The position numbers were made by a program, and so were the translations under genes. Source: Propionibacteriaceae bacterium (lineage in GTDB: Bacteria; Actinomycetota; Actinomycetes; Propionibacteriales; Propionibacteriaceae). Taken from it: a stretch of 55,786 bases of DNA. The DNA is taken from assembly GCA_009779115.1 (NCBI GenBank), contig WREX01000003.1, positions 1 through 55,786 of the forward strand, written 5' to 3'. The notes below the pieces were generated by a model, which searched no databases, was not told where the DNA came from, and saw only the letters and a list, made by a program, of their open reading frames with translations. Of the stretch, positions 2,421-27,416 are shown one piece after another. The stretch's first letter is position 1; each line of letters begins with the position of its first letter.

Positions 2421-3410
2421 TCAGCAAGACACGAATCTCTCAGAATTGGCTGACTCCAGCGCCGCCTCGACGACGCGCAGAGTACGCACTCCCTCGGCCA
2501 TGGTCACAACGGTGGTGGACCGGCCCAGGACTGCGTCCCGGAAGGCTTCGAGTTCGACCCGGAGCGGCTCGCGCTTGGGGAACGCGTACCGGATGACGTC
2601 ACCCTCGGACACACCGCGAAAAGCCGACACAGTGTCCCACTGAGTGGGAACAGTTCCATTGGAATAGTAAAGCAGGTCTGCGGTCAGAGTATCCGCAACA
2701 AACATGCCCCGGTCGCCAGCAACGATCGTGACCCTCTCTTTCATCGGGGACAGCCAGTTGACGACATGGTTGACGATCACGCCGTTGCCGAGTGTTCCGG
2801 TGATCAGCAGCATGTCCTCGTGGGTGTTCCCAGTACGGTAGGCAACCCTCGCGCCGACGGACACGTACGGAGAATGAGCCACCCATGACGTTGAATCGAT
2901 GTCGTGACTGGCCAAGTCCCTTCCCACTCCGACATCGACGATCCGGCCCGGGAAAGGCCCTTGCCGACGGGTGGTGATTTGGAAGATCTCGCCCAGTTGC
3001 CCCTCTGCGATACGTCGGCGCATCTCTTGGAGGGACGCGTTGTACCGCTCAATGTGGCCCACCGCGCCCACGATCCCGGCCGCGTCGAAAGCCTTGGCCA
3101 TGCCTACCCCGGCCTCAACCGAATGGGAGATGGGTTTTTCCACCATGGTGTGGACCCCTGCCGCAGCCAACTTCAGGGCCGCATCCTCGTGATATCGGGT
3201 CGGCACCGCGACGATCGCCAGGTCGATACCATGACGGATCAGATCATCGACATCCGGCAGAATCGGGCAGTCTCCCGCGACGCCGTGCCGGTCCCCCGCG
3301 GGATCCACCACGGCGACCAAATCTACTCCCTCGAGATCTCTGAGGATGCGGGCGTGATGACGCCCCATCATTCCGACTCCGACCAAACCGGCCCTCAGTT
3401 GCGTCATCAT
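2421..3410 (-). CDS. Gfo/Idh/MocA-family oxidoreductase (WbpB/WlbA-like UDP-amino-uronate 3-dehydrogenase candidate)
   Basis: N-terminal Rossmann 'LRAGLVGVGMMGRHHARIL', 'VEKPIS' motif; ATGA overlap with the upstream aminotransferase; operon context. Confidence 0.8.
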   Translation of the reverse strand: MMTQLRAGLVGVGMMGRHHARILRDLEGVDLVAVVDPAGDRHGVAGDCPILPDVDDLIRHGIDLAIVAVPTRYHEDAALKLAAAGVHTMVEKPISHSVEAGVGMAKAFDAAGIVGAVGHIERYNASLQEMRRRIAEGQLGEIFQITTRRQGPFPGRIVDVGVGRDLASHDIDSTSWVAHSPYVSVGARVAYRTGNTHEDMLLITGTLGNGVIVNHVVNWLSPMKERVTIVAGDRGMFVADTLTADLLYYSNGTVPTQWDTVSAFRGVSEGDVIRYAFPKREPLRVELEAFRDAVLGRSTTVVTMAEGVRTLRVVEAALESANSERFVSC

Positions 3411-4504
3411 GCACCAGCCTTCGCCACAGTGTTCACTGCATTCACGATTCTGGCCAGATCGGACTGGCTCAGGGACGGGTGAACGGGCAAAGACATCACT
3501 TCACGCGCGGCCTTGTCTGTTTCGGCCAAGTCACTGTCAGGCGCGTACTGGACCAATGAAGCCAATCGATGGCACGGGATGGGATAGTAGACGCCGCTGC
3601 CCACACCGTATTCTTCCCGCAACGCCTTGACGAAACCATCCCGGTCGTCCAAGACCCGGATGGTGTACTGGTGATACACATGGACCGCTCCAGCGGCGAC
3701 AGTGGGGATGACCACTGATTCCAGGTTTGCGTCGAAGAAAGCCGCATTGGCCTGGCGAGTAGCGGTCCAGGCGTCGACCTTGGTGAGTTGGACTCGCCCG
3801 ATCGCCGCATGGACATCGGTCATCCGGGCATTGAAGCCCACGATTTCGTTGGCGTACTGCTTCTCCATCCCCTGGTTGCGCAAGAGCCGCAGTGTACGAG
3901 CCATATCAGGGCTGTCAACGGAAACCATGCCCCCCTCCCCCGATGTCATGTTCTTGGTCGGGTAGAGGCTAAACATGGCGAAGGTGCCGAAGGTCCCCAC
4001 CTCACGGCCATGCAAAGACGCGCCGTGGGCTTGGGCCGCATCCTCGAACAGTGGAATGGCGTGGCGGTCGGAGATGGCCTGCAACTCATCCATCCGGGCC
4101 GGATGGCCATAAAGGTGAACGGGCATGATCCCACGCGTGGATGAGGTGATCGCCGCTTCGACCTCAACTGGATCCAGGCAGTACGTCTCCGGCTCAATGT
4201 CGACGAACACTGGCTTCGCTCCAGTCAGAGCCACGGCATTTGCAGTGGCGGCGAAGGTGAACGACGGCACGATGACCTCGTCGCCCGGCCCGATACCAGC
4301 AGCGAGAAGACCCAGGTGAAGACCCGATGTGCCCGAATTGACGGCCACAACAGGACGTCCCGAAACGAAGTGGTCGGAGAACTCTTGCTCGAAGGCGGCC
4401 ACCTCAGACCCCTGGGCCAACATCCCACTGGCGAGGACATGGTCCACAGCAGCCCTCTCTTCAGCGCTGATGATCGGTTTTGCGGGGGGAATAAAGTCGT
4501 TCAC
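3407..4504 (-). CDS. DegT/DnrJ/EryC1/StrS aminotransferase (WbpE/WlbC-like)
   Basis: 'PAKPIISAEERAAVDHVLASGMLAQGSEVAAFEQEF', 'FEDAAQAHGA', 'SLYPTKNMTSGEGG' (PLP Lys). GTG start at 4504 overlaps the preceding stop (GTGA). Confidence 0.88.
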   Translation of the reverse strand: MNDFIPPAKPIISAEERAAVDHVLASGMLAQGSEVAAFEQEFSDHFVSGRPVVAVNSGTSGLHLGLLAAGIGPGDEVIVPSFTFAATANAVALTGAKPVFVDIEPETYCLDPVEVEAAITSSTRGIMPVHLYGHPARMDELQAISDRHAIPLFEDAAQAHGASLHGREVGTFGTFAMFSLYPTKNMTSGEGGMVSVDSPDMARTLRLLRNQGMEKQYANEIVGFNARMTDVHAAIGRVQLTKVDAWTATRQANAAFFDANLESVVIPTVAAGAVHVYHQYTIRVLDDRDGFVKALREEYGVGSGVYYPIPCHRLASLVQYAPDSDLAETDKAAREVMSLPVHPSLSQSDLARIVNAVNTVAKAGA

Positions 4505-5109
4505 TGCGTCACCTCTCTGAGGACTCCGTCGGTCTCCACGTACGTTTGCGCCGTCACCGGGCATACCCACTGACTTCCCACAATACCCGGAATCAGGCGC
4601 ACACCAGCTCTGCCGACCCAGCCGATCCGCCGGGCGGGCACACCAGCGACCAACCCATAATCGGGTACATCCTTGACAACAACGGATCCTGCCGCGACGG
4701 TAGCCCAGGCTCCGATGGTCACCGGAGCCACACAGACGGCGCGGGCCCCCACAGAGGCTCCTTCACCGATGGTCACCCCCACCGGTTCCCAGTCGTGGGC
4801 GCTCTTCTGGGTGCCGTCGGGATTGATCGCCCTGGGATAAGTGTCGTTCGTCAAGACGACTGCCGGGCCGATGAACACCCCGTTCGCCAACCGGGCGGGT
4901 TCATAGACCAAGGCATAGTTCTGGACCTTACAGTTGTCACCCAGGATGACGCCCGTGCCGATGTAGGCGCCTCGGCCGATGATGCAGTCCTTCCCCAGTT
5001 GGGCGTCTTCGCGCACCTGGGCGAGGTGCCAGATGGAACAGCCGTGACCGATGACCGCCGATTCGGCGACATCAGCGGAAGCCATGATCCTCACAGTGGG
5101 CTCAGTCAT
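4501..5109 (-). CDS. left-handed beta-helix N-acetyltransferase (WbpD/WlbB-like)
   Basis: Hexapeptide-repeat pattern 'SAVIGHGCSIWHLAQVREDAQLGKDCIIGRGAYIGTGVILGDNCKVQNYALVYEPA'; ATG at 5109 overlaps the preceding stop (ATGA). Confidence 0.88.
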   Translation of the reverse strand: MTEPTVRIMASADVAESAVIGHGCSIWHLAQVREDAQLGKDCIIGRGAYIGTGVILGDNCKVQNYALVYEPARLANGVFIGPAVVLTNDTYPRAINPDGTQKSAHDWEPVGVTIGEGASVGARAVCVAPVTIGAWATVAAGSVVVKDVPDYGLVAGVPARRIGWVGRAGVRLIPGIVGSQWVCPVTAQTYVETDGVLREVTQ

Positions 5110-6419
5110 CGTATTACCCCTCCCGATCCCAGGACGAGACGGGGGGTACCCACCCACGCCTGGGGATCTGTCACGTTGCGCCCGTCAAACAACAGGCGTA
5201 TTCCTGGCAGATCTACCGGAGTGATGCTGCGATAGTCCTGGTGATCGGTCTGGACGATCGCCGCGTCGACGGTCTCGCCGAAGTGGTAGGCCGTCAATCC
5301 CAAGGCACTCAATTCCTCGTCAGAGTACATCGGGTCGTTGACCAGAGCAATCGCGCCGGAATCCCGCAATGCCTCCACCGTGGGAAATACCCCCGAGAAG
5401 GCGGTTTCTTTGACGCCCCCGCGATAAGCGGCTCCGAGGACGGCGACGCGCAAGCCGGTCAGGTCGCCCAGGACCTCGGCCACTCGACCAACGACGCGTG
5501 CGGGCATGGACGCGTTCAACAGTCGTGCCGTACGGACGATCTCGGCGTCGCGGTCGGTGGACAGGTACAGCCTCGGATAGACGGGAATGCAATGCCCGCC
5601 CACGGCAATCCCCGGACGATGAATGTGACTGTACGGCTGAGAGTTGCAAGCATCAATGACCGTATAAGCGTCCACCCCAATCGTGTCGGCGTACAACGCG
5701 AATTCATTCGCCAGCCCGATGTTCACGTCACGGAAAGTGGTCTCCGCCAGCTTCGCCAACTCCGCAGCTTCGGGTGATCCGAGATCCCAGACCCCATTGT
5801 CCCGGGCCAGGTCCGCACGCGGTTCGAACTGGAGAACAGCTTCATAGAAGGCCCTCGCCCGTACTGCCCCTTCCTCGCTCAGAGCCCCGATAAGTTTGGG
5901 ATATCGGCGCAAGTCGGAAAAGACACGCCCGGTCAAAACCCGTTCGGGCGAGAAGACTAGATGGAAGTCGCTGCCCTCATGCAAACCGGATTCCTGCTCA
6001 AGCATCGGCTTCCACCGATTGCGCAAGGTTCCCACAGGAAGAGTCGTTTCGTACGATATCAGCGTCCCCGCGGTGAGGTGTTGTCCCACAGACCTCGTCG
6101 CGGAGTCCATCCAGCCGAAATCAGGCTCCCACGTGGACTCGTCAACGAACAATGGCACAACAACGACCACTGCGTCAGCACCAGGGATCGCTTCAGCATA
6201 ATCAGTGGTAGCCCGCAGTTTTCCAGCCGGTACGAGTACACTCAGCTTGTCTTGGAGATGGGCTTCCCCCGGGAACGGTTCTTTTGCCGCGTTGACAGCC
6301 TCGACCGTGGTGGGGTTGACATCGACTCCGATCACCTCATGACCGCGGTCCGCAAATTGAACAGCTAGTGGGAGACCAATTTTCCCTAATGCCACGACCA
6401 CAATACGCACGTCCAGCAC
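5106..6419 (-). CDS. UDP-N-acetyl-hexosamine 6-dehydrogenase (WbpA/WecC-like)
   Basis: 'VVALGKIGLPLAVQFADRGHEVIGVDVN', 'LVFSPERVLTGRV', catalytic 'GIAVGGHCIPVYP'. GTG 6419 is the likely start; the ORF track extends to 6461. Confidence 0.87.
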   Translation of the reverse strand: MLDVRIVVVALGKIGLPLAVQFADRGHEVIGVDVNPTTVEAVNAAKEPFPGEAHLQDKLSVLVPAGKLRATTDYAEAIPGADAVVVVVPLFVDESTWEPDFGWMDSATRSVGQHLTAGTLISYETTLPVGTLRNRWKPMLEQESGLHEGSDFHLVFSPERVLTGRVFSDLRRYPKLIGALSEEGAVRARAFYEAVLQFEPRADLARDNGVWDLGSPEAAELAKLAETTFRDVNIGLANEFALYADTIGVDAYTVIDACNSQPYSHIHRPGIAVGGHCIPVYPRLYLSTDRDAEIVRTARLLNASMPARVVGRVAEVLGDLTGLRVAVLGAAYRGGVKETAFSGVFPTVEALRDSGAIALVNDPMYSDEELSALGLTAYHFGETVDAAIVQTDHQDYRSITPVDLPGIRLLFDGRNVTDPQAWVGTPRLVLGSGGVIR

Positions 6420-6729
6420 TGTACCATTCAGCACGAATGCGACAAACCCAGATACGTACAATGAGGCCTATACGATGAACGACGCTGTCATGTCAGCTAG
6501 TCAGCACTTCTCCCACTGATTCATTTGAACCATGGGGCGGGATTAGACCATGGCAAGGACTCCTGATTCGTTATTGTCAGACCGCTGCTCCTGATAAAAG
6601 ATAAATAATCAGTCCACTCGGTGCCCCTCCAGCGGATCGTGGTCATTCGCCTAAGGAACCCCTGTCACAATTGAAGACATCATCAGATCGCAACCCGTGT
6701 CGACACAATTACTGCTTTGGATGAAACCT

Positions 6730-6771
6730 CGTTGGGTCGGTTCCCATGGGCAAATGGGAACCGACCCAACG
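6730..6771. terminator. 18-bp perfect inverted repeat with 6-nt loop (candidate terminator)
   Basis: CGTTGGGTCGGTTCCCAT-gggcaa-ATGGGAACCGACCCAACG, just 3' of the protease gene on the minus strand; no strong T-run on either side. Confidence 0.7.
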
Positions 6772-6794
6772 AATTATTCTACGGGATATTCCCC

Positions 6795-8300
6795 CTAGCC
6801 AATAAACTTGAAACCACTCCATCCCTTGAACCCGATCTGTGCTCTGACGCTGTAGGACGTCCCCGTCCCATTGTTCTTCCACCACCACAACGTTCCGTCA
6901 TTCAGGACAGCAATGATGTCAGCGACCCTGTCGCCGTTGAGGTCGGACAACCAAATACTGGTGTACGGTTTCCAACCCACGCCAATCTGCTTCCACGAAC
7001 TGTAGGGAGAAGTAGCGGACTTCGTATTCGTGTACAAACGCAAAGTTCCATCAGGCAGTGCTCCGACGATGTCCGCGTAACCATCGCCCGTGACATCACC
7101 AACGGCAAGATGGGTGAAACTCTGCCACCCCACACCAATCTTTATCTTCGAGCTATACGGGTGAGAGGCGACTCTGGTATTGGGGTACAGAAACAGTTGA
7201 CCATCAGACTGGGCCACGACGATGTCTGCGTATCCATCACCCGTGACATCACCAACCTCAAACTGAGTGAAATGTTGCCACCCAACACCGACCTTGATAC
7301 CAGCACCACTCGCATTCGGATACAACATCAAATCCCCGTTGGATTTGACAGCGAGAATGTCCGCCTTACCGTCACCAGTGACATCACCGACCCCGAACTT
7401 GACGGTGGCCCCCCATCCTGGACTTACCTTAGTGCCAAGATTGAAGGGAGTGAGATTGCCATTGTTCGTGTAGGAATAGAGATAGTCATTCGAATAAATT
7501 CCAACAATATCGGCCAACTGATCACCATTGAGATCACTATTGGAACCAGCCTTGGGCGCCGGAGTGACTTTGTAACCCGTCGCCTGGTACGCCTCATACA
7601 CGTCCTGGTCAACCACAGACCACGAGAGGTATCCATAACCACTCTGGCCCCAGGCTGTGCCCCAAGAGTTTTGGATGCGGAGCCCAGTGCTGTTGTAACC
7701 CACTGCAAGCACCGCATGTGCTCCAAGGACAGAACCCTTGGTGTCCGTGTCAATATATGAACTAGACTTCAGATTCTCAAATCCAGGTCTCACATAGAAA
7801 CTGATGGCAACTGGGCTTCCATTGGCAAGTGCTTGTTTCAGGACACTCTCAGCGATTGATTTAACGCCGCTTTTCCCCTTGAAAAGGGTCTTGTAGCCAG
7901 TCAACTTGAATTGAGCAGCCGCAGTCCGATCACCGGTAGTCGGCTGCGCCTGCCAATTCGTTGATCCATGAGAATAATGGATCACAGTATCATTGCCTTG
8001 CAGTATCGCTTGTTTAACCGCAGCTTCGAGATAGGCACCACCATCACGCGTCGGTTTCCCTTGATTGGTTTGCGAATATGAGTACATTGGTTCGAACCAC
8101 TGCACTGCTTGGTTGGCCTTTTTCGCGTACCATCCCATCATGTCGTGAGCAACCGCCCAACCCGTGCAGGAGCTGATTTGACCCTGATTTCCGACGGGTA
8201 CCGCCCATGACGACAAGTCAACCGATGCAGGTGACCCCGCAACCTTTGAACTTGATACTACCTTTGGTGCTACAGTTGTTGTTGGTACCAGCGCCCCCAT
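6795..8300 (-). CDS. secreted papain-like (C1-family) cysteine peptidase with C-terminal FG-GAP/VCBS repeats; the natural start is probably at 8417 but is separated by an in-frame TGA
   Basis: Catalytic-type motifs 'GNQGQISSCTGWAVAHDM', 'GAHAVLAVGYN', 'IQNSWGTAWGQSGYGYLSW'; repeats 'VGDVTGDGYADIVVAQSDGQLFLYPNT'. Upstream in-frame translation encodes a signal peptide (see findings). Confidence 0.85.
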   Translation of the reverse strand: MGALVPTTTVAPKVVSSSKVAGSPASVDLSSWAVPVGNQGQISSCTGWAVAHDMMGWYAKKANQAVQWFEPMYSYSQTNQGKPTRDGGAYLEAAVKQAILQGNDTVIHYSHGSTNWQAQPTTGDRTAAAQFKLTGYKTLFKGKSGVKSIAESVLKQALANGSPVAISFYVRPGFENLKSSSYIDTDTKGSVLGAHAVLAVGYNSTGLRIQNSWGTAWGQSGYGYLSWSVVDQDVYEAYQATGYKVTPAPKAGSNSDLNGDQLADIVGIYSNDYLYSYTNNGNLTPFNLGTKVSPGWGATVKFGVGDVTGDGKADILAVKSNGDLMLYPNASGAGIKVGVGWQHFTQFEVGDVTGDGYADIVVAQSDGQLFLYPNTRVASHPYSSKIKIGVGWQSFTHLAVGDVTGDGYADIVGALPDGTLRLYTNTKSATSPYSSWKQIGVGWKPYTSIWLSDLNGDRVADIIAVLNDGTLWWWKNNGTGTSYSVRAQIGFKGWSGFKFIG

Positions 8301-8965
8301 ACCGTGTGTCGTAGCACCCTGAGCTGAGGTCGGGCTCAGGACTGCTCCAGCAATGACTAGCCCGAAAACTGCCGCCGCTGCGATGAAGCGCGTGCGAGAC
8401 CTGGATCAAAATGTCATGACATTCACGAATGGTTGGGACGACGCCTCACTGGGAGGTGCTTCGCCCCTCCTCCTTCCAAAAAGGACGTGGCCCGAAGGGA
8501 CCCTTACAGCTTGCGCATACTTGCGTAAGCCACATACAAAAATAAGCTACTCATTTTTTAACTCGCATCACGACTGTCTTGAATGTCGGCTGGTTCACGA
8601 ACTCGATGACTTATGGCAAGTACGGGGACAAGGGTCATAGGGTAAAAACGCTCCACCAGAAAAATACCAGCATGTCAATAAACGGAGCGACTCACTTCCA
8701 CTCCAGGGCAACACCATTCCTCCTACAGGCCAAACTAAGATGAACTTAAGGACACCGACACAAGCATGGAAATCTCGGTCTTGGCGACTCGGACCATGTC
8801 GGGTGTGTTTTTCGCTTGGGATTGGGTTGACAAGGTGGCTTAATATTGCTGTTGTGTGCTTGGTGAGATCCAAATAACCACAACCGATAAAAGTGACCCA
8901 TCTCAAGACGTAGTCCCCCAATGGATAAGTAGATCATTCTGCTGATGCTACGTTGGAGAGATGTG

Positions 8966-10081
8966 TCAGGAGTAGAAGGACTCGACGTTGACGCCCTCAA
9001 TCATCGTTCTCGGGACCCGATATGCAGGAAAGTACTTTGTGGCAAGGAGGTCAGTCACTTCACATCCAAGACTGTGGGCGCGCTCGGCGGTGAGTGCATG
9101 ATACCTGTCCGAGTCAACTATCACCGTACCAACAAGATAGTGGCAGCGTTGTCCACCGAATGAAGCTTTAAAGGAGAACAGACTATCGTTCGGACGAGTG
9201 CCTCCACCAAGGTGGAACCACTTCAACCCTTTCTGATTTCCCCACTCAGCGGCAGTCCAGAGCAGAAGATTGTTGGCACCCCTATGTGCTGCTCCAAGAT
9301 TAGACGCAGACAAATGATAGTGCAACCTTTCGCCATCGACGAAGAGCAAGGCTGCTGCGACAATAGTGGCTTCCGCATCCTTGACAACAGCCAGTCGTGT
9401 GCAGTCCCCGAGTACCTCGAAGCATCGATGGAAGTAGTCATCGGAAAAGAAATACTCCTGACCAGCATGCAGTCGGCGCATAGACAAGTCATACAGATAC
9501 CGAAAAGCGTGATCCGGCCGACTGATGGACGCGTCAAGGGCGACAACCTGGGCAGTGAGCCCATGTTTCCGAGCTTGCCGAATCGCTGTTCGGCTACGCC
9601 CTGTCATCTGAGTCCACGTCTGATCTAAGTCCTGGATGGGTACGAGAATCGTGTCAGACAAGTGTCTGACTGTGGCGAAAGGCAAATTAGCCACTCGGTC
9701 GCTGGACACAGCATCCCAGGGGGTGAACCGCAGGAAGAGCGAAATTATTCCGGCAGATCGAAGCATATCGATGAACGCCGACCAATGTCTCCTGAGGAGT
9801 GAATCTGAGAGGCCAGGGGATACGAACACTCCTGAATACCCGTAAGGCGATACACCATCTTGCCATTGTCCAATTTTCCTAGTGATCAAGGGCACTTGGA
9901 AACCACCGGTCGGATCTGTCACGGTGAACCAGGTACCGCCTGCCTCGACAGCGGTGAGATGACCATAAGACTCGCCAAAGTAAAGGCTTGGTACATATCC
10001 GGGCTCAGTTGAACGAATAGCTATTGTCACTCCTGAGACTCCTTTTACGAGTGTCCACCAAGAAGGATGGGAGAATTGCAC
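8966..10081 (-). CDS. FemAB/GNAT-fold (acetyltransferase-6-like) transferase
   Basis: 'WTQMTGRSRTAIRQARKHGLTAQV', 'LHYHLSASNLGAAHRGANNLLLWTAAEWGNQKGLKWFHLGGGTRPNDSLFSFKASFGG' typical of FemAB-like proteins. Confidence 0.8.
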   Translation of the reverse strand: MQFSHPSWWTLVKGVSGVTIAIRSTEPGYVPSLYFGESYGHLTAVEAGGTWFTVTDPTGGFQVPLITRKIGQWQDGVSPYGYSGVFVSPGLSDSLLRRHWSAFIDMLRSAGIISLFLRFTPWDAVSSDRVANLPFATVRHLSDTILVPIQDLDQTWTQMTGRSRTAIRQARKHGLTAQVVALDASISRPDHAFRYLYDLSMRRLHAGQEYFFSDDYFHRCFEVLGDCTRLAVVKDAEATIVAAALLFVDGERLHYHLSASNLGAAHRGANNLLLWTAAEWGNQKGLKWFHLGGGTRPNDSLFSFKASFGGQRCHYLVGTVIVDSDRYHALTAERAHSLGCEVTDLLATKYFPAYRVPRTMIEGVNVESFYS

Positions 10082-10341
10082 TGCGAAAACATCTTACTTC
10101 AGAAGAGCACACATTAGCTGGCTACGAGTGATGGCGAGCACGTTGCTCGTCAGTATTCCTTCACCACGACAGAAAGCGTTCTATTGGGCAGGGTGGCACC
10201 CGGTGGTCATGCTGTAAGATGACTGTTTGGTGAAGTGTTGTTTTTCTTGGCAGGAACATGTACGAAGTCTCAATGTGATGTGCGAATGCGGTCGAGGGAT
10301 GTCCCTACCTGAGCGTGAAGATGGCGATCCGAGGGGCCAGT

Positions 10342-11586
10342 ATGAGTGAAGACCATCACGTCTGGATAATCAACCACTATTCGACGATCCCATCAAAGGA
10401 TCATAGTCATGGTCGTCATTTGGGTCTCGCCCAGTATCTATCCGAGTACGGCTGGTACCCAGTTCTCTTCGTAGCAAGCACCACGCATCCTTTGGGAGAA
10501 CAGCGCATGGGAACACTCGCGTGCACAAAAAGGACAATGGAGCTTGGTGTACCATGTGTCTGGATCAGAACACCGGCTTATTGGGGGAAGCAGATGCTTC
10601 GCCTTTTTAACATGATTGCTTTTACTGTTGGCCTGCTCAGACCAGGAGCCACACGAGGCGTGCCCAGGCCAAGTGTTGTGCTTGGGAGCACTGTCCACCC
10701 ATTAGCCGCGTGGGCCGCCAGCAGACTGGCCAAACGATATCGGATTCCTTTCGTATACGAAATCCGTGACATCTGGCCCGAGAGTCTGGTCGACCTCGGA
10801 GCCCTTAGTGCGCGAGGGTTACCCGCCAAACTTCTAGCGCGGCTGTCTGACACCTTGATCAAGAAGGCAGACAGGGTCGTATCGCCGCTGCCGAACATAG
10901 GGCTTTATCTCTCGGATAGGCATTTCCCAGACAAGTTGAGTTCTTACATACCTAATGGTATTGATGCACCATCCAATTGGGAAAGGGAGGACCACACAAC
11001 CCCGAAACGGGGTTCGTTCACATTCATGTATCTGGGCTCCCACGGTTACGGAAACGGGCTTGAGACCTTGCTGAGTGCATTCGACAAGGCATCCCAGCAG
11101 ACATCGACCGTCAAAGCAAGCTTGCGACTAATCGGCGATGGTCCGCGCAAGAAGAAGCTCATGGATTTTGCCAAGACCTTGAGTTCTTCTGAGTCCATCA
11201 CATTCGAAGATAGGATTCCACGGTCTCAGGTCATGGGTAGAGCTCAAGAGGCGGACTGCTTGGTCGCGAGTCTTGCCAACATGCCCGTCCTGCGATATGG
11301 AATCAGCCCTAACAAGTTCTTCGACTATATGCTCGCTGCGAGACCAATCATCTGCGCTGCACCCTCCGGATTGAGTCCAATCGAAGAGGCTGGGGCCGGT
11401 CTGACTGTTGAGCCAGGGGATGAGTCCGGACTATGCCAGGCAATGACTGAAATGCTGGCCGCCGGTGATGAGAAGCGCATACAGATGGGCCTACAGGGCA
11501 GAGACTATGTACTGAAACATTTCACATACCATGATTTGGCTGCGAGACTCGCTGGCATTCTCAAGTCTTTGGTTGTCGAACAGTGA
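10342..11586 (+). CDS. GT4-family glycosyltransferase (WbuB-like)
   Basis: 'VWIINHYSTIPSKDHSHGRHLGLAQYLSEYGWYPVLF', 'FVYEIRDIWPESLVDLG', 'FTFMYLGSHGYGNGLETLL'. ATG 10342 follows a GAGGGG RBS-like sequence. Confidence 0.88.
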   Translation: MSEDHHVWIINHYSTIPSKDHSHGRHLGLAQYLSEYGWYPVLFVASTTHPLGEQRMGTLACTKRTMELGVPCVWIRTPAYWGKQMLRLFNMIAFTVGLLRPGATRGVPRPSVVLGSTVHPLAAWAASRLAKRYRIPFVYEIRDIWPESLVDLGALSARGLPAKLLARLSDTLIKKADRVVSPLPNIGLYLSDRHFPDKLSSYIPNGIDAPSNWEREDHTTPKRGSFTFMYLGSHGYGNGLETLLSAFDKASQQTSTVKASLRLIGDGPRKKKLMDFAKTLSSSESITFEDRIPRSQVMGRAQEADCLVASLANMPVLRYGISPNKFFDYMLAARPIICAAPSGLSPIEEAGAGLTVEPGDESGLCQAMTEMLAAGDEKRIQMGLQGRDYVLKHFTYHDLAARLAGILKSLVVEQ

Positions 11587-11770
11587 GGAAGTCATCAATA
11601 ATCTGGCGAATCCGAGATGTCCTCAGTTGACAGGTAGAATCGATTCCTACTAGGCGGTACGGTATGGTAATTGGCGTGAAGGCCAATCTTCTCAGAGTCA
11701 AAGTATCCGAGATCGCACAGACGAAGGCTGTGTGCCAGTCATGTGCATACTGGACTTCTGGTGGTGATAG

Positions 11771-13279
11771 ATGCGGTCAACACTAACTCAAAGCATACGT
11801 GGTCATCAGACAAGGGACTTAGATGACCTCAACACCACACAAAGCCCTTCACCCACACTATTCAGGAGTAGGACGGTCATTGCGGTCGTTATGCTCATGT
11901 GCTTAATCGTCCTCTACGAGAGTTATGTCTATATAATTCAACCAGGATTTCCTGATATGGGCATGCGACTTCGGGTTATACCTGCTGCTGCGCAACTAAT
12001 AATGTTTGGTCTTGCTCTGATTCCAATTCGCTTCCTTCCGATTCATTGGAATCGAATGTCTTCGGTCACCCTGTGGTTCTTGTATGTGATCCTGATTGGC
12101 CCAGCGATTTGTCTCATTCCAACCACCGTGTACGCTCCGATTCCACTTGCCATGGCATACTCCCTATTGCTCTTGCTGGGCTTCCTAATTGCTATCCTCT
12201 TTGCAGGCAAGTCTGATCCGAAGCCCTTGTTCTGGAAAAAATCAACGCTGTCAGTGCCAGTAGCCATTTTCTGTCTGGTTACTGTGTTTGTGCATGTCGT
12301 CCTCAACCGAGTGTCACCGATCAGTTTCAACTTACCCCAACTGTCAGACATTTACGACGTTCGCGGAGATTACCAGGATGCTGTGATCCAGTCCCCCCTC
12401 GTGATGCCGTTGGTGGGTTTGCAATCAAACTGCATCAATCCGATCATGATGGTTATCGGCGGACACAACATGAGGCGGATTTGGTTGCTAGTCGTGGCCG
12501 TTGTCAGCCAACTCATACTGTTTTCTGCTACCGGAATGAAGACGGCCTTGTTCTCTGCACCAATCATCATTGTGTTGCTCATCTGGGGGAGATGGGCGAA
12601 AGCCCGGCCGATCCATGTTGTCGTCGCTGCACTGGCCGTCCCTGTTATAGCCCTGATCATTGACGGTATCACTCATGGGCACGCATGGACATCGTACTTT
12701 GTGCGACGCTTGGTTCTGGCGCCATCAACACTGTCAGGCGCATATTTTGAGTATTTCTCTACTCATGAACTGAACTACTTGGGTGGGATTATTCGTCGCG
12801 TCTTCGGCCTCCAACCGTCGCTTCCGCCCGCTTATCAGGTCTCTGATTATTTAATCGGACAAACTGTGTCTATGAACGCAAATTCTTTCGCTGCCGGATT
12901 CGCGGACTTTGGCGTCTTGGGCGTCTTTATCGTGGGAGCGGTCATAGGTCTGTTCCTTCGGTTCTTGGATCGGGCGTCAGTCGGCCTACCGATGTCCTAT
13001 TTACTCCCTCTATGCCTCTATCCAACTATTACCCTCAGCAATGCCGCCATACAAACATCTCTCATTACCAATGGACTTATTGCGATTCCGTTTGCCCTGG
13101 CGATGATGCCACTCGGAGTGCGTTCAGCACTGAATCCTTCGCCGGGAATATCATCCCCAAATACTGAGAATCATTCTTCCTACAACTGGCTCAGTGGAAT
13201 CGCATCTCACCCCAACCATTCGGTTGTCCACGAGAGGGTTAGCTTGCATCCTGATGCTGTCCATTCGAGGAAGAAATGA
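11771..13279 (+). CDS. polytopic membrane protein, candidate polysaccharide polymerase (Wzy-like)
   Basis: Many hydrophobic segments, a long extracytoplasmic segment and position inside the locus; low sequence conservation is expected for Wzy. Confidence 0.65.
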   Translation: MRSTLTQSIRGHQTRDLDDLNTTQSPSPTLFRSRTVIAVVMLMCLIVLYESYVYIIQPGFPDMGMRLRVIPAAAQLIMFGLALIPIRFLPIHWNRMSSVTLWFLYVILIGPAICLIPTTVYAPIPLAMAYSLLLLLGFLIAILFAGKSDPKPLFWKKSTLSVPVAIFCLVTVFVHVVLNRVSPISFNLPQLSDIYDVRGDYQDAVIQSPLVMPLVGLQSNCINPIMMVIGGHNMRRIWLLVVAVVSQLILFSATGMKTALFSAPIIIVLLIWGRWAKARPIHVVVAALAVPVIALIIDGITHGHAWTSYFVRRLVLAPSTLSGAYFEYFSTHELNYLGGIIRRVFGLQPSLPPAYQVSDYLIGQTVSMNANSFAAGFADFGVLGVFIVGAVIGLFLRFLDRASVGLPMSYLLPLCLYPTITLSNAAIQTSLITNGLIAIPFALAMMPLGVRSALNPSPGISSPNTENHSSYNWLSGIASHPNHSVVHERVSLHPDAVHSRKK

Positions 13280-13312
13280 TCGGTCTTCACGTCGATTGGA
13301 GGGAGAACCACT

Positions 13313-14512
13313 ATGGGTGACTCCAAGACGACTTCATTGTCAAGAAACAACACAACCAAAGTCGCTCTGGTACCCCAACAGGTGACCAGGCGTCATGTTC
13401 GTATCGCCCACGTCAGTTCTGTTCATCCATGGTCTGATAATAGAATCCACTTTCGTGAATGCCAGTCATTAGCCCAAGCCGGATATGAGGTGACGCTCGT
13501 GGCTGTCGAAACAGACATGGTTGGTATCCGTCCTGCTGTGTCAGTCCGGGCGTACAAGGGTAGGAACTCACGGTTGACGCGAATGGTTTTTGGCTCGTGG
13601 GCTGCGATTGGCATGGCGCTGCGATCTCACCCCCACATTGTTCACTTACATGATCCAGAGTTGTCATGGGCAATACCGCTCCTTCGCATAGCTGGGAAAC
13701 ACGTCATCTATGATGCCCACGAGGATCTTCCCTCCCAACTCTTGGACAAGTCATATATAAACCCCAGGCTACGCCGGATCACCTCGTATGTCGGTCGCCT
13801 CATTGTTGGGTTGACTCGATCGGCATCCCACGTCATCACGGCAACGGAGAAGATCGCGGAGCGATATCCGCAAGGCAAAGTCACTGTTGTTCACAACTAT
13901 CCTCCGGCTCTGCCACGGGTAAAATCTGTCACTCCCCTAGTAGAACGGGAAAACAGAGTGGTGTATCTCGGAGGAATAACCGAGGGGCGAGGCTTCAGCC
14001 AGATGATCGATGCCACAAAGGAGGAATCATGGCCGTTCGAATGGAAACTTATCTTGGCAGGCCCGATATCCGATCAACTCAGGACTCGCTTGGAAGACAC
14101 ACAAACAAACCCCCGTGTCGAATACCTCGGCCGATTGCCACCTGATGACGCGCGGGCACTACTCGACACTGCCAAGGTGGGATTGTGCCTCTTTCAGGAC
14201 ACCTCTGCGCACCGGGATGCCCTGCCCACCAAGGTCTTCGAGTACCTGGAGGCAGGCTTGCCAGTCATAGCGTCTGATTTTCCGCTGTGGAAGCAGCTGT
14301 TTGAGACTTGTGGGATATTGGTTGACCAGTCATCTCCATCTGAAGTGGCACGAGCAGTGGCAGCCTACGACGCCCACCCGGATCTCCTTGTGCATCATTC
14401 TGCTCAGGCCTTGGCCGTGTCGGCTGAAAGCACCTGGGACAGCGAAGCTGCGAAACTCCTGGGGGTATACGCTGACCTCACGAGGCGGTCGACATCGGAT
14501 TCGTCCGCATGA
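13313..14512 (+). CDS. GT4-family glycosyltransferase (tandem paralogue 1)
   Basis: 'IVHLHDPELSWAIPLLRIAGKHVIYDAHED', 'AHRDALPTKVFEYLEAGLPVIASDFPLWKQLF'. Confidence 0.87.
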   Translation: MGDSKTTSLSRNNTTKVALVPQQVTRRHVRIAHVSSVHPWSDNRIHFRECQSLAQAGYEVTLVAVETDMVGIRPAVSVRAYKGRNSRLTRMVFGSWAAIGMALRSHPHIVHLHDPELSWAIPLLRIAGKHVIYDAHEDLPSQLLDKSYINPRLRRITSYVGRLIVGLTRSASHVITATEKIAERYPQGKVTVVHNYPPALPRVKSVTPLVERENRVVYLGGITEGRGFSQMIDATKEESWPFEWKLILAGPISDQLRTRLEDTQTNPRVEYLGRLPPDDARALLDTAKVGLCLFQDTSAHRDALPTKVFEYLEAGLPVIASDFPLWKQLFETCGILVDQSSPSEVARAVAAYDAHPDLLVHHSAQALAVSAESTWDSEAAKLLGVYADLTRRSTSDSSA

Positions 14513-14607
14513 CCTGGGAATTCGATCAAAGAGTTCGTGTCGAATCGTCGAGGGTCACCGAAGGATTCCACGAATCCGAGTTCTGAAAGCAGGAATGGAA
14601 CAATGCT

Positions 14608-15780
14608 ATGAGAGTGTTGCACGTTGCTACGAATCATCCTTGGACTGACAACCGTGTTCACTATAGGGAATGCACTTCACTGGCATGTGCTGGATACGAT
14701 GTGACGCTGATCGCGGCCACCGCTGATCACGCTGTCCCTGGTCCTAGTCCAGTTAAACTCGTCATTGTCCCCCGTCATCGACTGCGGTGGAGAATGCTGA
14801 TTGCCCCTGGGCGAGCCGTGCTTGAAAGTGTTAAGCGTCATGCTCACATCGTTCACCTACACGATCCCGAGCTTGTATTCGCCATCCCGGTTCTGCGAAT
14901 CCTTGGGATGAAGGTCATCTTTGACGCACATGAGGATTACCGTGTGAGCTTCCTTTCCTGGCTTCATCAGCCTTGGCACAGACGTGCAATATTGAGTGTT
15001 TTAGGCCGAGTCATCGTCTTCCTTGGTGGTCTGGCTACGCATGTGATAGCCGCCACAGAGACAATCGCAGTGCGCTACCCCACAAGGAGAGTATCTATCC
15101 TGCATAACTACCCTCCCCTGTCAAGACTTGCCGAATCCAGTACGCCCATTCACCAGCGCTCGAAGACTGTCATCTACATTGGTGGGTTCTCAGATGCCAG
15201 AGGCATCCACCAAATGATCGATGCGACACACCATGCCCTGTGGCCTAGTGACTGGACATTGGTGGTTGCAGGCCCAGGCTCAGGAAACTTGAGGACAGAG
15301 CTTTCCAACACCATCTCTCACCCACGAGTCAGGTACTTGGGACTCCTACCCCCGCAAGAGGCTCGCGCTTTGCTGGATGACGCTCGGGTAGGACTGTGTG
15401 TCTTTCAAGACACCGCCGCGCATCGGGACGCCTTGCCCACCAAGGTTTTCGAATACTTAGAAGCTGGACTGCCAGTCATCGTGTCCAATTTTCCACTCTG
15501 GCGCACCCTGTTCAACCAATGCGGAACCTTCGTCAATCAAGAGTCATCAATGGAGATAGCACGCGCAGTAGCAGCGTACGACCAGGATGCCCGACTTCTA
15601 GAGACACACGCCACAAAGGCCCACCATCTCGCTATCACCCAGTTCAATTGGGAGCACGAGGTGACATGTCTCCTTGACGTGTATCAAATGATCGCGAGGA
15701 AACATCAACCGCATCAACACCCCCACCATCCCCTTGGAAAAGCCAACCTCGCATCTGAATCTTCAAGCCCGGGGAATTGA
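14608..15780 (+). CDS. GT4-family glycosyltransferase (tandem paralogue 2)
   Basis: 'IVHLHDPELVFAIPVLRILGMKVIFDAHED', 'AHRDALPTKVFEYLEAGLPVIVSNFPLWRTLF'; co-linear with the preceding ORF. Confidence 0.87.
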   Translation: MRVLHVATNHPWTDNRVHYRECTSLACAGYDVTLIAATADHAVPGPSPVKLVIVPRHRLRWRMLIAPGRAVLESVKRHAHIVHLHDPELVFAIPVLRILGMKVIFDAHEDYRVSFLSWLHQPWHRRAILSVLGRVIVFLGGLATHVIAATETIAVRYPTRRVSILHNYPPLSRLAESSTPIHQRSKTVIYIGGFSDARGIHQMIDATHHALWPSDWTLVVAGPGSGNLRTELSNTISHPRVRYLGLLPPQEARALLDDARVGLCVFQDTAAHRDALPTKVFEYLEAGLPVIVSNFPLWRTLFNQCGTFVNQESSMEIARAVAAYDQDARLLETHATKAHHLAITQFNWEHEVTCLLDVYQMIARKHQPHQHPHHPLGKANLASESSSPGN

Positions 15781-15905
15781 TCGTGACCATCCAAAAAATC
15801 GAGCAGATCCGTCGAGCACCTTGTCGTTCGCGATGCTACAATCACGGCACGAAGTAGGTGACTGGTCATAAGCCAAGAAACGAATCCGACGAAAACGAGG
15901 AACAG

Positions 15906-17042
15906 ATGAGGATTGTCAGTGTAGTTGGAGCGAGACCCCAGTTTGTGAAACTCGCTCCTATCGCCAAGGCGGCTCGTGACGCCGGGGTTGAACATGTCAT
16001 CGTCCACACAGGTCAGCACTATGACCCAATGTTATCCGATACGTTTTTTTGTGATCTCGGTATCCCTACACCCGATGTCAACCTCAATGTTGGCAGTGGT
16101 AGTCACGGGGTGCAAACCGGTCAGATGCTCGCTGCACTTGATCCAGTCTTGGAGGACTATTCTCCTAATTGGGTCCTGGTTTATGGTGACACGAATTCGA
16201 CGCTGGCCGCAGCGCTCAGCGCAGTGAAGATGCATCTCCCAGTGGCGCATTTGGAGGCCGGCCTCAGGAGCTTCAATCGTCGCATGCCAGAAGAGCACAA
16301 TAGGGTGGTTGTCGATCACGTCGCAGACCTTTTGCTGGCTCCAACCAGCCTCGCAGCCCAGAACCTCAAGGCCGAGGGACTGGAGTCGAGTACGGTAATC
16401 GTTGGTGATGTGATGGTCGACGTACTTTTAGACGTCCGTGACAAGGTCATCGGGCACGTCAGCCGGGCAAAGCAATCTCTCGGTTTGTCAAAAGACAACT
16501 ACTACGTTGCTACAATTCATCGGGCAGATAACACCGACGATCCGGCAAGGTTATCGGCCATTTTGGATGCACTGGGTTCATTGGATAAGCCGTCGGTTCT
16601 CTTGGTCCACCCGCGACTCGCCGTAAAAGCGACAGCTTGGGGCATGAAGATCGGTCGCGGGAATCTCCATGAGCACCCTGCGCTGGCATACCCCGATCTC
16701 GTGGCTGCTGTCCTATCCAGCGCAGGAGTGGTGACCGACTCAGGCGGATTACAGAAGGAAGCATTCTTGTTGCGTGTGCCCTGCACCACTGTTCGGACCG
16801 AGACTGAGTGGTCCGAGACTGTGGATTGCGGCTGGAACGTGCTCGCGCACGACCCCGGAACCATTCCGAAAGCAGTGATGAGACCAATTCCACCTCCCAC
16901 TGACGCCACTCCCTACGGAGACGGTCATGCAGCCCAAGATGTCATCAAAGCATTGGCTCAGCATTCCGATGTCTCATCAGGGGGCGTTTACGGGACTGGG
17001 CGACTCGTCAGTCTCCAACCGACAACCCACACAATAGAGTAA
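15906..17042 (+). CDS. wecB: UDP-GlcNAc 2-epimerase family (WecB/WbpI-like)
   Basis: 'MRIVSVVGARPQFVKLAPIAKAARDAGVEHVIVHTGQHYDPMLSDTFF', 'VYGDTNSTLAAALSA', 'VAHLEAGLRSFNRRMPEEHNRVVVDHVADLLLAPT', 'TDSGGLQKEAF'. Confidence 0.92.
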   Translation: MRIVSVVGARPQFVKLAPIAKAARDAGVEHVIVHTGQHYDPMLSDTFFCDLGIPTPDVNLNVGSGSHGVQTGQMLAALDPVLEDYSPNWVLVYGDTNSTLAAALSAVKMHLPVAHLEAGLRSFNRRMPEEHNRVVVDHVADLLLAPTSLAAQNLKAEGLESSTVIVGDVMVDVLLDVRDKVIGHVSRAKQSLGLSKDNYYVATIHRADNTDDPARLSAILDALGSLDKPSVLLVHPRLAVKATAWGMKIGRGNLHEHPALAYPDLVAAVLSSAGVVTDSGGLQKEAFLLRVPCTTVRTETEWSETVDCGWNVLAHDPGTIPKAVMRPIPPPTDATPYGDGHAAQDVIKALAQHSDVSSGGVYGTGRLVSLQPTTHTIE

Positions 17043-18238
17043 TGAACGGCTTGAGCCACGACGAACGCCCCACAGGTAGCCACTAAACTCAGACCGATAC
17101 CGTGGGCAATGAATGCTGATCCCAAAGTGAGAACCATCCGAATGACAGAGACCACTATCCACGATCTGGATTGCAGGATCGTGAAAACCGGGCTAACGGT
17201 GGAACCGATGATCGCAGCTGCCGAACCAACGCAGAGAACTTGGGCTAGCTGTCCGGCGACGATCCAGTTGGGCCCCAGGATCAACGGGAAGAGTTGACGG
17301 GAGAGCGAAATAAAGACGATGAGAATGAGGCCAGCCACTCCAGCGAGTATGGCGGATGCTCTCAGGTAGTACCTATTCAGACCAGCGGAACCCTGCCGAA
17401 ACCTGCTCGCGAACTCCGCGGCAAAGACCTGACCGATGGCGCCACCAATAGTTATAATCGGAATAGAGACAATGCGTTGTGCCATTCCCATTTGACCGAC
17501 CGCCACCGAGCCAAACCATGTGCCTACAATCAGTGTTGGCAATTGATTACTCAGGTCACCGATAATCCCCGACGGGGCCATGATCGCAGGCAGACGCCGG
17601 AACTCCCTCGCCACGGCTCGGTATGTACTCGTTTGAGGACGTACTCGAAGGTCCTTGGTAGCCTTGACGAGCGGGACAAAACCCATCGAACTTCCGATGA
17701 CATTTCCAAGCAGGAGCCCGACACCTGATCGAGTAACCACCGATAGTATTAACTGGGATAATGTTGTGCCTAAAGACTGAATCGGCGTTCGTCGTGCGAC
17801 CACTCCATAACTACTCTCCCTCAAAGCTCCCTGTGTCAGGGTGAGAAAGGCTGCCGATAACAGAATCATAAGGCCCACCCACAGGGGAGCCAAGGGTATT
17901 GATGTAAGAGTCGGAACGGTGCGAGTCCACCACAGAAAGGCCACGACCGCACTCGCCAAGAGCGCTCCGATTAGTGCGCTGGTGAGGGACAGACGGAATA
18001 ATCGACGGGCAGTGTCCTGCTCTCGCGGGATGATGATTCCAGCGTCAAATTTGAGTGTGACTGAAGGCGCAACCGCAGCAACCAAGGACACAATGACAGT
18101 GTAGTTTCCGTAGGCACTTGGCGGATACAAGCGAGCCAGGAAAATAGTGGAGATCGCAATAATCACCTGGCTAAGAACTGCTCCACTCGCGATCGCCGCC
18201 ACACCTTTCACGACTCGACCTGCACCGAAATGCGCCAA
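16988..18238 (-). CDS. oligosaccharide flippase (Wzx-like, polysaccharide biosynthesis family)
   Basis: 'VKGVAAIASGAVLSQVIIAISTIFLARLYPPSAYGNYTVIVSLVAAVAPSVTLKFDAGIIIPR'; about 12 TM pattern; overlaps the 3' end of the epimerase tail-to-tail. Confidence 0.83.
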   Translation of the reverse strand: MAHFGAGRVVKGVAAIASGAVLSQVIIAISTIFLARLYPPSAYGNYTVIVSLVAAVAPSVTLKFDAGIIIPREQDTARRLFRLSLTSALIGALLASAVVAFLWWTRTVPTLTSIPLAPLWVGLMILLSAAFLTLTQGALRESSYGVVARRTPIQSLGTTLSQLILSVVTRSGVGLLLGNVIGSSMGFVPLVKATKDLRVRPQTSTYRAVAREFRRLPAIMAPSGIIGDLSNQLPTLIVGTWFGSVAVGQMGMAQRIVSIPIITIGGAIGQVFAAEFASRFRQGSAGLNRYYLRASAILAGVAGLILIVFISLSRQLFPLILGPNWIVAGQLAQVLCVGSAAAIIGSTVSPVFTILQSRSWIVVSVIRMVLTLGSAFIAHGIGLSLVATCGAFVVAQAVHYSIVWVVGWRLTSRPVP

Positions 18239-18522
18239 TTCACCACCATCCTTGCAGGACGACTATCTGATGTGTCGCGTTTACCACGGATCGTCGCGAC
18301 ACTTGACGAGATTGCATCCCCGAATACTGCCACTGACGACGATGCATGGTCGTCATCATAACGGTTGATGACTACCGTGTGCCACTGACGACAGTCTCCG
18401 AGCCCACGCCCTGTCGTGATAGAGTGCTCGATTGTCGATGAATCTGTGGGGTGCACACTGCACGATATCGTGTCCCCTGAGAGCATCGATCAGAATTAGC
18501 AGACGTGCACAGGAGGCCAGCG

Positions 18523-20016
18523 ATGGAACCCCATTGTTCCCTTGATGATGCGGTCTTCACGTATTTCGTGGCGACAGATCCCTATCCTGGCCTGAGACTC
18601 AAGTGTGAACTGGTGCATTCTGGCTTGATAGTCAGCCACACTGAGGGCACTGTCGTACTTTCCGCTTCCACAGATCACGAATCGGTGTGTGTCATCGGCT
18701 TGTGCGTAGATTCTCATGCAGAGATTTCGCGCGAGGAGATTCCTCAGTACCTTGTGAGCAAAAATGCGGGTGGAGTTCACGGAATCGTTCGGGCTACCAA
18801 GCGGTTGGCTGGGAGGTTCGCCATCATCTATTGTGACGGCGAGACGACTCATGTCCTCGGCGACGCGACAGGGTCTCTTTCGGTGTTCTATGATGTGAAA
18901 TCCCCAGTCTGTCTATCATCCAGCGACGAACTGATCCGCAAACACCGGGGCTACGACGTGTCGAACGATGTGGTGGCCCTGCGCGAACGCATCGGCTACG
19001 CACGGCCTCTTCCCAATGATGTCACTGTCTGCGACAACATTCGAGCACTCTTGCCCAATCACTATCTCAATGCCACAGCCTGCGCTGTCACCCGCTTCTT
19101 TCCTACCCGCGACACATCCTTGAGGCATGGCAGGAGACAACCACTTGAGATTGGCAACCTTATTGATCGGTGTATTGAGCGGGTGGAGAGGATCACGAGA
19201 GAGTATGCAAAACACGCTGACATTGTGTGTCCCCTATCTAGCGGCACCGATAGTCGGGCAAACCTCGCCATTCTGAAACTCTATGTTCCCAATCTGGCCT
19301 GCTACACCTTTCGCCACCCAGGCTTCACGGATCAGACGGGCGACTACTATATCCCCCCAAAACTCTGCGAATTGACTGGATTGAGCCACATCTCGATTGA
19401 CGACCTCACCGCACCGACCCAGTACGTCAACAGCGTGAGGGAGATCGTCGGTCAGTATCACAGTCAGTCCACGATTAATCTCGCCTACACTCTCAACTCT
19501 ACTCTGCGAGGCAAGACGCTGATCGATGGAAACATCCTGCAGTACGTCGCCAAAGCGGTCATCGGCTACACCTTGCCCCCTCAGTTAGCCACGACCCGGC
19601 TCTTCGTCGAGCGGTACAACGGAGGCTCCCGGATTCTAACGGACATTGTCTCTGCATGGGTGCAGGATATTCGGGACAATGGTTGTCACAACGAAATCTT
19701 TGATCTGTTTGGTGTAGAAAGTTCATGTGGTCGATGGGGAGCCCAGACGAGCGCAATCTATGCCGCAACGGGAGTCGCCACTTTGAGTATCTTCAATTGC
19801 ATTGACGTGATAGAAGATTTGATGCAGATCCCAGCCCGATTGAGACGGGACAACATCGTGCATCGGCGAATCCTGACGAAGTTGGCCCCTGAACTGGCAT
19901 CATTGCCATTCAACCCAGGACAGAAAACCCTCACTCTCAGACTTCGGATGAGCGCCCCATACACCCTGTTTGCTCCCTATGCCAAGCAGTTCAGGCGCAA
20001 GTTGACGCCTCGGTGA
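18523..20016 (+). CDS. asparagine-synthetase-like protein with degenerate N-terminal amidotransferase domain
   Basis: ATP-PPase-like P-loop 'CPLSSGTDSRANL'; AsnB-like two-domain layout 'LAGRFAIIYCDGETTHVLGDATGSLSVFYD'; no Cys2. ATG 18523 after AGGAGG. Confidence 0.7.
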   Translation: MEPHCSLDDAVFTYFVATDPYPGLRLKCELVHSGLIVSHTEGTVVLSASTDHESVCVIGLCVDSHAEISREEIPQYLVSKNAGGVHGIVRATKRLAGRFAIIYCDGETTHVLGDATGSLSVFYDVKSPVCLSSSDELIRKHRGYDVSNDVVALRERIGYARPLPNDVTVCDNIRALLPNHYLNATACAVTRFFPTRDTSLRHGRRQPLEIGNLIDRCIERVERITREYAKHADIVCPLSSGTDSRANLAILKLYVPNLACYTFRHPGFTDQTGDYYIPPKLCELTGLSHISIDDLTAPTQYVNSVREIVGQYHSQSTINLAYTLNSTLRGKTLIDGNILQYVAKAVIGYTLPPQLATTRLFVERYNGGSRILTDIVSAWVQDIRDNGCHNEIFDLFGVESSCGRWGAQTSAIYAATGVATLSIFNCIDVIEDLMQIPARLRRDNIVHRRILTKLAPELASLPFNPGQKTLTLRLRMSAPYTLFAPYAKQFRRKLTPR

Positions 20017-20085
20017 CACGATAATCTCGGTCCATCGTCCGAGAAAAACGCGCCTAATTATTCGATGAGTGGCTAAGATCCATTC

Positions 20086-21978
20086 ATGACGGTTCCCCCT
20101 CCTCGTGTCCTCATCCCGATCAAGCGAGAATGGAACCCACTGGTGACAGCCAACCCACAGATCAATCCGATGAAGCGATTTACTCGACGAACTGTGGCTC
20201 CAGGGCACATTGGACTTGCAGTGTTGACAATGTTAGTTGTTATAGTACTCATGAGTTGCACAAGTGCACCTATTGTTAGCCCATCCACCGGACAATCCAG
20301 TGGAGCATATTTTTTCGGGTATCCCTACGATGCGAACAAAGACGCCCTCCTCGTTTTCGGCACATGTCCCGTTGCCAATGTCCTCACACTATCGACATCT
20401 TCCGACTCCAGATGGGTCGCATACTCGACCGTATCTGCGATCACTGGGAGAGTCGATCTTTTTCGAATGGCTGCCTCCGGTAACTGTGCTCCTGAGCAGT
20501 TGACAAAGACGGACACTGTCGAATTCGATCCAGTTATCGATGACACGGGATCAGTTGCGTGGGCTCAAATGAACAGTGACTCTTCATCAACTGTGGTCAT
20601 CGACGGTGAGGCACTCGACCTACCTCAGGGCCTTTACAAAGGTCTTGCCTACGACCAAGACACACTGTACGTGGGACAACAATTAGCCAGCGCAGACAAG
20701 TGGCAACTGATGGTCATTAATCGATCAAGCCGACAGTACGACACTGTTTCGTGCCCACTGCTGATTGATCGGATCACAGTGCGATCCGATAATCGTGTTG
20801 TGCTCGAAGGTCTGGATAGCGCCACCAATCACATGGCAATATATGATTACCACACCGATTCCAAGGCCTTAGTGAGGCTGCAGGACAATGCGGTTTACGG
20901 GATTGACGAACAATTGATCACACTAAAAGGTTTGTCGAGTGACGACTCCCTCAAACAGCTGATTCAACGCGATATTGACTCTGACGACCCACTGTTGAGC
21001 TATTCGTCTGCTAACAACGCCGCAGGTCGGCTGTCGTATTATGCTTCGTATCGACTATTGGGAATGCTCGATGCCTGGCAACATGGGGGAATCCCAGGAC
21101 TGTCTCAGGCCACTCTTAAAGCCTTGATCACACATGCTGCAGCGAAGATGATTTCAAATGCTAAGGACTACGGGTGGCCCACCACGAAATACTCCCTGGA
21201 CCAACATACCGAATTGTCGTTGTTGGTCAATGATGCATGTGTATTGTATCCCCTCCTCAAAGCTTATAATGCCGGTCTTCTTGACGATCAGTCAGGGCGC
21301 CGACTATTGGAGATTGCCAAGACGATTTGGGACCGTAACGAGAGTGATTGGATTCAGGGGCAGGGTTACCGCTTCACCCCGGGAATCGCCTACATCTGGG
21401 ACGGCGTGACACTGCCTTTCAACCAACAGAACGCATTCGGACTGGCTCTCTTGGAGTTACACACAGCCACTGGAGACCAGAAATATCTGGACCGGGCACT
21501 GGACTTAGCCAAACTGTTCAAGTCCGAAATGGTTCAATCGGATGACGGTCGACTCCTCTGGCACTATTGGCCCCAGCGCTTCTACGACGGTTGGACCATC
21601 AGTTCTGGAGTGTCCGTGAACACACCAGAGCGAAAACCAACCCAGGACACCTTGTTCGAGGATGTCTCGCATTCTGCGTGGAACGTAATGTTCATGGTTG
21701 AGTTACAGAAAAATCAGACCATTGTCTTCACAGGCCAAGACTATTCTGCCCTCGACAAGACACTAACGGGAATCAAGGATGGTGTGTCCTTCAACCGGTT
21801 CCTTGGTGGCAGCCTCCCAAACCAAACGCCTTCCCTTCAATATCGACCATCTTACGGATGGCTGTTCCTGGGCAACGACGACCTACGCTCTGATTACGCC
21901 ACCCGTGTGATCACCACCACCATCCCCTACGATGGTGATCGCTTGGCCAACCTGATCTACGCCCTTAATCACGATTGA
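20086..21978 (+). CDS. lipoprotein: N-terminal beta-propeller-like region + C-terminal (alpha/alpha)-toroid-like region
   Basis: Signal and lipobox 'MKRFTRRTVAPGHIGLAVLTMLVVIVLMSC' if started at ATG 20170; helical repeats 'GDQKYLDRALDLAKLFKSEM', 'YYASYRLLGMLDAWQ', 'FEDVSHSAWNVMFMVEL'. Fold call is inference. Confidence 0.6.
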   Translation: MTVPPPRVLIPIKREWNPLVTANPQINPMKRFTRRTVAPGHIGLAVLTMLVVIVLMSCTSAPIVSPSTGQSSGAYFFGYPYDANKDALLVFGTCPVANVLTLSTSSDSRWVAYSTVSAITGRVDLFRMAASGNCAPEQLTKTDTVEFDPVIDDTGSVAWAQMNSDSSSTVVIDGEALDLPQGLYKGLAYDQDTLYVGQQLASADKWQLMVINRSSRQYDTVSCPLLIDRITVRSDNRVVLEGLDSATNHMAIYDYHTDSKALVRLQDNAVYGIDEQLITLKGLSSDDSLKQLIQRDIDSDDPLLSYSSANNAAGRLSYYASYRLLGMLDAWQHGGIPGLSQATLKALITHAAAKMISNAKDYGWPTTKYSLDQHTELSLLVNDACVLYPLLKAYNAGLLDDQSGRRLLEIAKTIWDRNESDWIQGQGYRFTPGIAYIWDGVTLPFNQQNAFGLALLELHTATGDQKYLDRALDLAKLFKSEMVQSDDGRLLWHYWPQRFYDGWTISSGVSVNTPERKPTQDTLFEDVSHSAWNVMFMVELQKNQTIVFTGQDYSALDKTLTGIKDGVSFNRFLGGSLPNQTPSLQYRPSYGWLFLGNDDLRSDYATRVITTTIPYDGDRLANLIYALNHD

Positions 21979-21980
21979 GT

Positions 21981-23554: not shown

Positions 23555-23561
23555 ATTTCAC

Positions 23562-24203: not shown

Positions 24204-24235
24204 GGGTCCATAATACAAGGCACCCTTCGACACGT

Positions 24236-27344: not shown

Positions 27345-27416
27345 ATGGAGCCTAACTTGGTGCTCAACCGGTCCTTGAGGCCCTTCCCCACAACGAATTT
27401 AACCAAAAAATCGGGG

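Follow-up and report, generated by a model that had tools for sequence, protein, structure and literature searches.

In a gene for a putative secreted protease, papain-like and fused to FG-GAP repeats, a TGA stop codon takes the place of the start codon that its relatives use. We consider it probable that the gene has undergone a real and recent loss of its translation start. The gene lies on the minus strand of a window of 55,786 nucleotides (the whole stretch of DNA that was analysed, contig WREX01000003.1 of a Propionibacteriaceae bacterium). Its 5′ end reads GTG AAT GTC ATG(8417) ACA TTT TGA(8408-8406) TCC AGG TCT CGC ACG CGC TTC ATC GCA, and directly behind the TGA an open frame of 536 codons runs to a stop codon at 6797-6795. 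GTG 8426 and ATG 8417 are the only usual start codons in frame 5′ of the TGA. The first ATG, GTG or TTG behind the TGA is ATG 8300, and a start there loses the signal peptide SRSRTRFIAAAAVFGLVIAGAVLSPTSAQGA. The features of the locus to which the argument refers are as follows.

8415-8417, minus strand: ATG put forward as the start in the initial annotation, without a Shine-Dalgarno site (-0.7 kcal/mol)
8410-8423, no strand assigned: perfect 14-bp palindrome AATGTCATGACATT over ATG 8417, from the sequence
8406-8408, minus strand: in-frame TGA at the start-codon position of the paralogues, from the sequence, motif distances and the M-SR signal peptide of a sister species
6795-8405, minus strand: 536-codon frame with signal peptide, papain-like (C1) domain and FG-GAP repeats, from translation, the ORF list and Pfam
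8310-8405, minus strand: predicted signal peptide SRSRTRFIAAAAVFGLVIAGAVLSPTSAQGAT, end approximate, from composition and similarity to signal peptides of the genus
8298-8300, minus strand: first usual start codon behind the TGA, within the conserved MG motif of the mature region
7578-8300, minus strand: papain-like domain region with the active-site Gln, Cys, His and Asn
6798-7577, minus strand: FG-GAP repeat region, from Pfam and direct repeats D1
6729-6772, no strand assigned: perfect 19-bp inverted repeat with a 6-base loop, from the sequence
6452-24314, no strand assigned: variable polysaccharide cassette, with 52.5% G+C against 61% in the flanks, which align to a sister species as the inside does not

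An intact protease frame behind the stop codon

The frame behind the TGA matches Peptidase_C1 (PF00112; E 1.5e-10, 42 bits against a cut-off of 20.7) and FG-GAP_3 (PF13517; E 9e-25, 87.5 bits in four stretches, above the curated cut-off) in Pfam. The papain catalytic residues are all present (Gln 8186-8184, Cys 8168-8166, His 7718-7716 and Asn 7670-7668) and align with those of eight paralogues, and we found no extra stops, frameshifts or lost active-site residues in the 536 codons. The signal peptide was judged by eye, from its composition and its likeness to others of the genus. The initial annotation had described the TGA, the frame and the missing starts exactly, as re-reading and translating the sequence confirmed, and it was also right that a signal peptide lies in frame with no usual start to keep it and that the catalytic motifs downstream are intact. 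Third-position G+C fails to separate the frames within the gene. The inverted repeat begins 22 bases beyond the stop codon of the protease gene, with a run of T residues on the plus strand; it appears terminator-like and separates the gene from one for a UDP-sugar dehydrogenase.

The predicted protein shares its Gln-Cys-His-Asn active site and domain layout with the papain family of cysteine peptidases (PF00112) and matches the PDB sequences of cathepsin K and others. It differs from that family in being a bacterial, predicted peptidase that is fused to FG-GAP repeats and whose gene has no usable start. Closer relatives are the papain surface proteins of the genus (L055, L057, L058, L060 and L061), which likewise consist of a signal peptide, a short linker with the MG motif and a papain domain (41-48% identity). 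Most of these proteins, however, run on into 700-2500 residues where the window protein has FG-GAP repeats, and their genes possess the start codon and ribosome-binding site that the window gene lacks.

Three further papain-domain genes are present in the same genome, a draft of 231 contigs that is 64.6% complete, and eight further ones are present in two sister species (40-48% identity). Orthologues of the protease gene were found in none of 19 genomes of the genus, searches of genomes, viral contigs and plasmids returned no close orthologue, and we found no literature on papain plus FG-GAP proteins in actinobacteria. Among nine aligned papain domains, that of the window protein is the most divergent. 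It keeps 48 of the 60 columns that are invariant in the eight others, which is too close to the next-lowest value (48 of 56) to suggest relaxed constraint.

The TGA occupies the expected start position

Three observations, taken together, indicate that the expected start position coincides with the TGA itself, rather than lying three codons 5′ of it. First, the distance from the start codon to the VPVG motif of the papain domain is 65-67 codons in five short-linker paralogues (from genomes G000, G017 and G001), and the window TGA lies 69 codons from this motif. Second, 36 codons separate the start from the linker MG motif in the second paralogue of L055, exactly as many as separate the TGA from the MG motif here. 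Third, the signal peptide of L063, a large protein of another sister species, MSRPRERARRVIAGVAAFGLLSSGLVLSP, aligns with [TGA]SRSRTRFIAAAAVFGLVIAGAVLSP, such that M-SR in L063 corresponds to [TGA]-SR in the window, in a match that on its own is weak and at chance level (E 0.039). The initial annotation had taken ATG 8417 as the start and the TGA as its fourth codon. This assignment did not survive, as the ATG is not preceded by a Shine-Dalgarno site and the paralogues and L063 put the initiating methionine at the TGA; ATG 8417 thus has little support as the original start. ATG 8300 is also unlikely to have been the original start, because it lies inside the conserved MG motif of the mature region.

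A 5′ end without a ribosome-binding site

Paralogues with readable 5′ ends begin with ATG (GTG or TTG in one case) directly behind a ribosome-binding site. As a simple test for Shine-Dalgarno sites, we calculated the duplex energy with the anti-Shine-Dalgarno sequence, which ranges from -6.3 to -9.5 kcal/mol at the paralogue starts. By this measure, every candidate start of the protease gene lacks such a site: the energies are -0.7 kcal/mol before both ATG 8417 and TGA 8408, -1.9 before GTG 8426, -2.1 before both ACG 8393 and ATC 8384, and -2.7 before ATG 8300, the last being equal to the median of random 20-mers in the window (-2.7). A purine-rich stretch, GGAAGGAGGAGGGG, is located about 60 bases 5′ of the TGA, and no start codon is suitably spaced from it.

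These values bear on the main rival reading, which we consider less likely: the TGA would stem from a sequence or assembly error, or from a mixture of strains. In that case the start would be ordinary in the true genome, and the draft would show an incorrect base or number of bases near 8406-8417. The draft is fragmented, one single-base event would be enough to yield an open frame with a start, and the remainder of the gene is perfect. One argument against a real lesion is that a single lesion in a draft genome is indistinguishable from a consensus error. However, no break was seen in those other long genes of the window that were checked, and so the draft is not visibly error-prone. Furthermore, the missing ribosome-binding site is not supplied by one base. 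This 5′ end therefore differs from a normal one by more than a single base, and the case for a plain single-base error is weaker for it. Genes of actinobacteria can start without a Shine-Dalgarno site, and thus the lack of one does not exclude such an error. The same point counts against a real loss of the start, as does the simplicity of the duplex-energy test.

Another proposal, which we consider improbable, is that the gene works through non-standard initiation, either at one of two near-cognate codons (ACG 8393 and ATC 8384) or with no Shine-Dalgarno site, in a structured leader. The body of the gene and its catalytic residues are intact, short frames overlap in the leader, and its fold is somewhat more stable than that of shuffled sequences (z -1.7; 11 of 200 shuffles fold as well). 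Yet neither near-cognate codon follows a Shine-Dalgarno site, a start at ATC would strip the signal peptide of its positive residues, and every paralogue starts at ATG or GTG/TTG behind a ribosome-binding site. Rfam gave no meaningful match in the leader, and thus no riboswitch or other known RNA was found there. The leader showed no DNA similarity to the leaders of the paralogues, and no second copy of it was found elsewhere in the same genome.

We also considered whether the palindrome at 8410-8423 is a repeated operator. This candidate was rejected, as the palindrome is unique in the genome save for one site with one mismatch, and the window contains seven perfect palindromes of at least 14 bp. 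A separate observation concerns genes for papain surface proteins from two species of the genus, two at L055 and two at L057. All four have in common a conserved leader, about 100 bases long, 5′ of the ribosome-binding site (CCTGGAGTCTCTCCAGTGTTCAATAACCAG...GCGCTACGAGTACGCC); it is possibly a shared regulatory RNA or promoter.

Recoding as an improbable reading of the TGA

In-frame stop codons under purifying selection have been reported in bacteria (PMC7918605), and the frame of the protease gene is open before as well as behind the TGA. The codon might accordingly be read through by a suppressor tRNA, by near-cognate tRNA-Trp or as selenocysteine. We regard this explanation as highly improbable, and the readthrough suggested by the initial annotation found no backing. 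No stop codon is commoner in the window than TGA, which terminates 17 of the 25 genes checked; this rules out general reassignment of UGA. Selenocysteine was discarded as a candidate because none of 19 genomes of the genus gave a SelB match above the cut-off (the genome under study itself being 65% complete). No UGA-reading anticodon is present among the tRNAs found, in an incomplete draft where tRNA-Trp itself was not found. No relative has a TGA at the matching site, where the paralogues carry start codons, and the ATG at 8417 that readthrough would depend on has no ribosome-binding site. Two more apparent in-frame TGAs, in a dehydrogenase relative, proved to sit 5′ of the start of that gene.

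The genes with conserved in-frame stops described previously (PMC7918605) resemble the window gene in having an intact frame beyond the stop. In those cases, however, the stop was judged through orthologues under purifying selection, whereas the window gene has no orthologue and its stop falls at the start codon; the same study cautions that a stop close to the 5′ end may stem from a wrongly annotated start (PMC7918605). It would be a long shot that the protein is nonetheless made and secreted, from a near-cognate start just behind the TGA or by low-level UGA readthrough, and that the TGA keeps the dose of the protease very low.

A gene at the border of an exchanged cassette

In the sister genome G017, a single contig aligns with both flanks of the polysaccharide cassette (2724-6451 and 24315-30663; 83% and 79% identity, respectively), and between these same flanks G017 carries a different set of genes (L108). 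Going inwards from the left border of the cassette, the protease gene comes first. Its upstream neighbour encodes an acetyltransferase/FemAB-like protein, and none of the 19 genomes of the genus has an orthologue of it. Damage to the 5′ end is likely in a gene that moves together with an exchanged cassette.

Under the reading we prefer, a real and recent loss of the translation start of an accessory secreted protease gene, the codon at which the relatives start is now TGA, with no ribosome-binding site before any candidate start. We infer that expression is lost, such that the protein would not be made, or would be made in small amounts from ATG 8300 and remain unexported. Because the gene lies at the edge of a polysaccharide cassette that species swap with one another, the likeliest history is that recombination at this border damaged or replaced the 5′ end, and that afterwards there would have been no selection to keep the gene.

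Several other features of the window were noted. A gene for a YafQ-type toxin (Pfam) is located at 34829-35080, and a gene with a PIN_2 domain (a toxin in Pfam) at 35439-36127 follows a small putative antitoxin gene without a Pfam match. Positions 36773-52378 encode a surface protein of 5201 residues with a signal peptide and DUF11/DUF7507/DUF7927 repeats, and a second surface protein of this type adjoins it at 52516-55767. Long opposite-strand frames at 36773-52378 are probably by-products of composition.

Age and meaning of the probable lesion

The lesion takes away the normal translation start, as a TGA stands in its place and no usual start keeps the signal peptide. The same arrangement, a stop at the start position with no other start that retains the signal peptide, occurs in bacterial pseudogenes that have lost their start or acquired an early nonsense codon, and the window gene is distinct from these in that its lesion is single and may be an assembly error.

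If real, the lesion is young, because nothing else is broken in 536 codons. Specifically, 4.0-4.2% of random substitutions in the frame create a stop. As a result of such changes, half of neutral copies of the frame are broken at about 1% substitutions per site and 95% at about 4.5%; when one indel per 20 substitutions is added, 95% are broken at about 2%. If the gene is unconstrained, the lesion would therefore be younger than about 4.5% substitutions per site, or about 2% with indels. The initial annotation had proposed either a very recent event or an error in the sequence, and these remain the two leading readings of a gene with an intact body.

Neither a real lesion nor an error would surprise a specialist, and the finding is an ordinary one. 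If the TGA is an error, there is ground for correcting the draft. Automatic annotation would begin the gene at 8300 and thus label an exported protease as cytoplasmic. If the lesion is real, it would document that a secreted protease was lost very recently, at the edge of a cassette exchanged among species.
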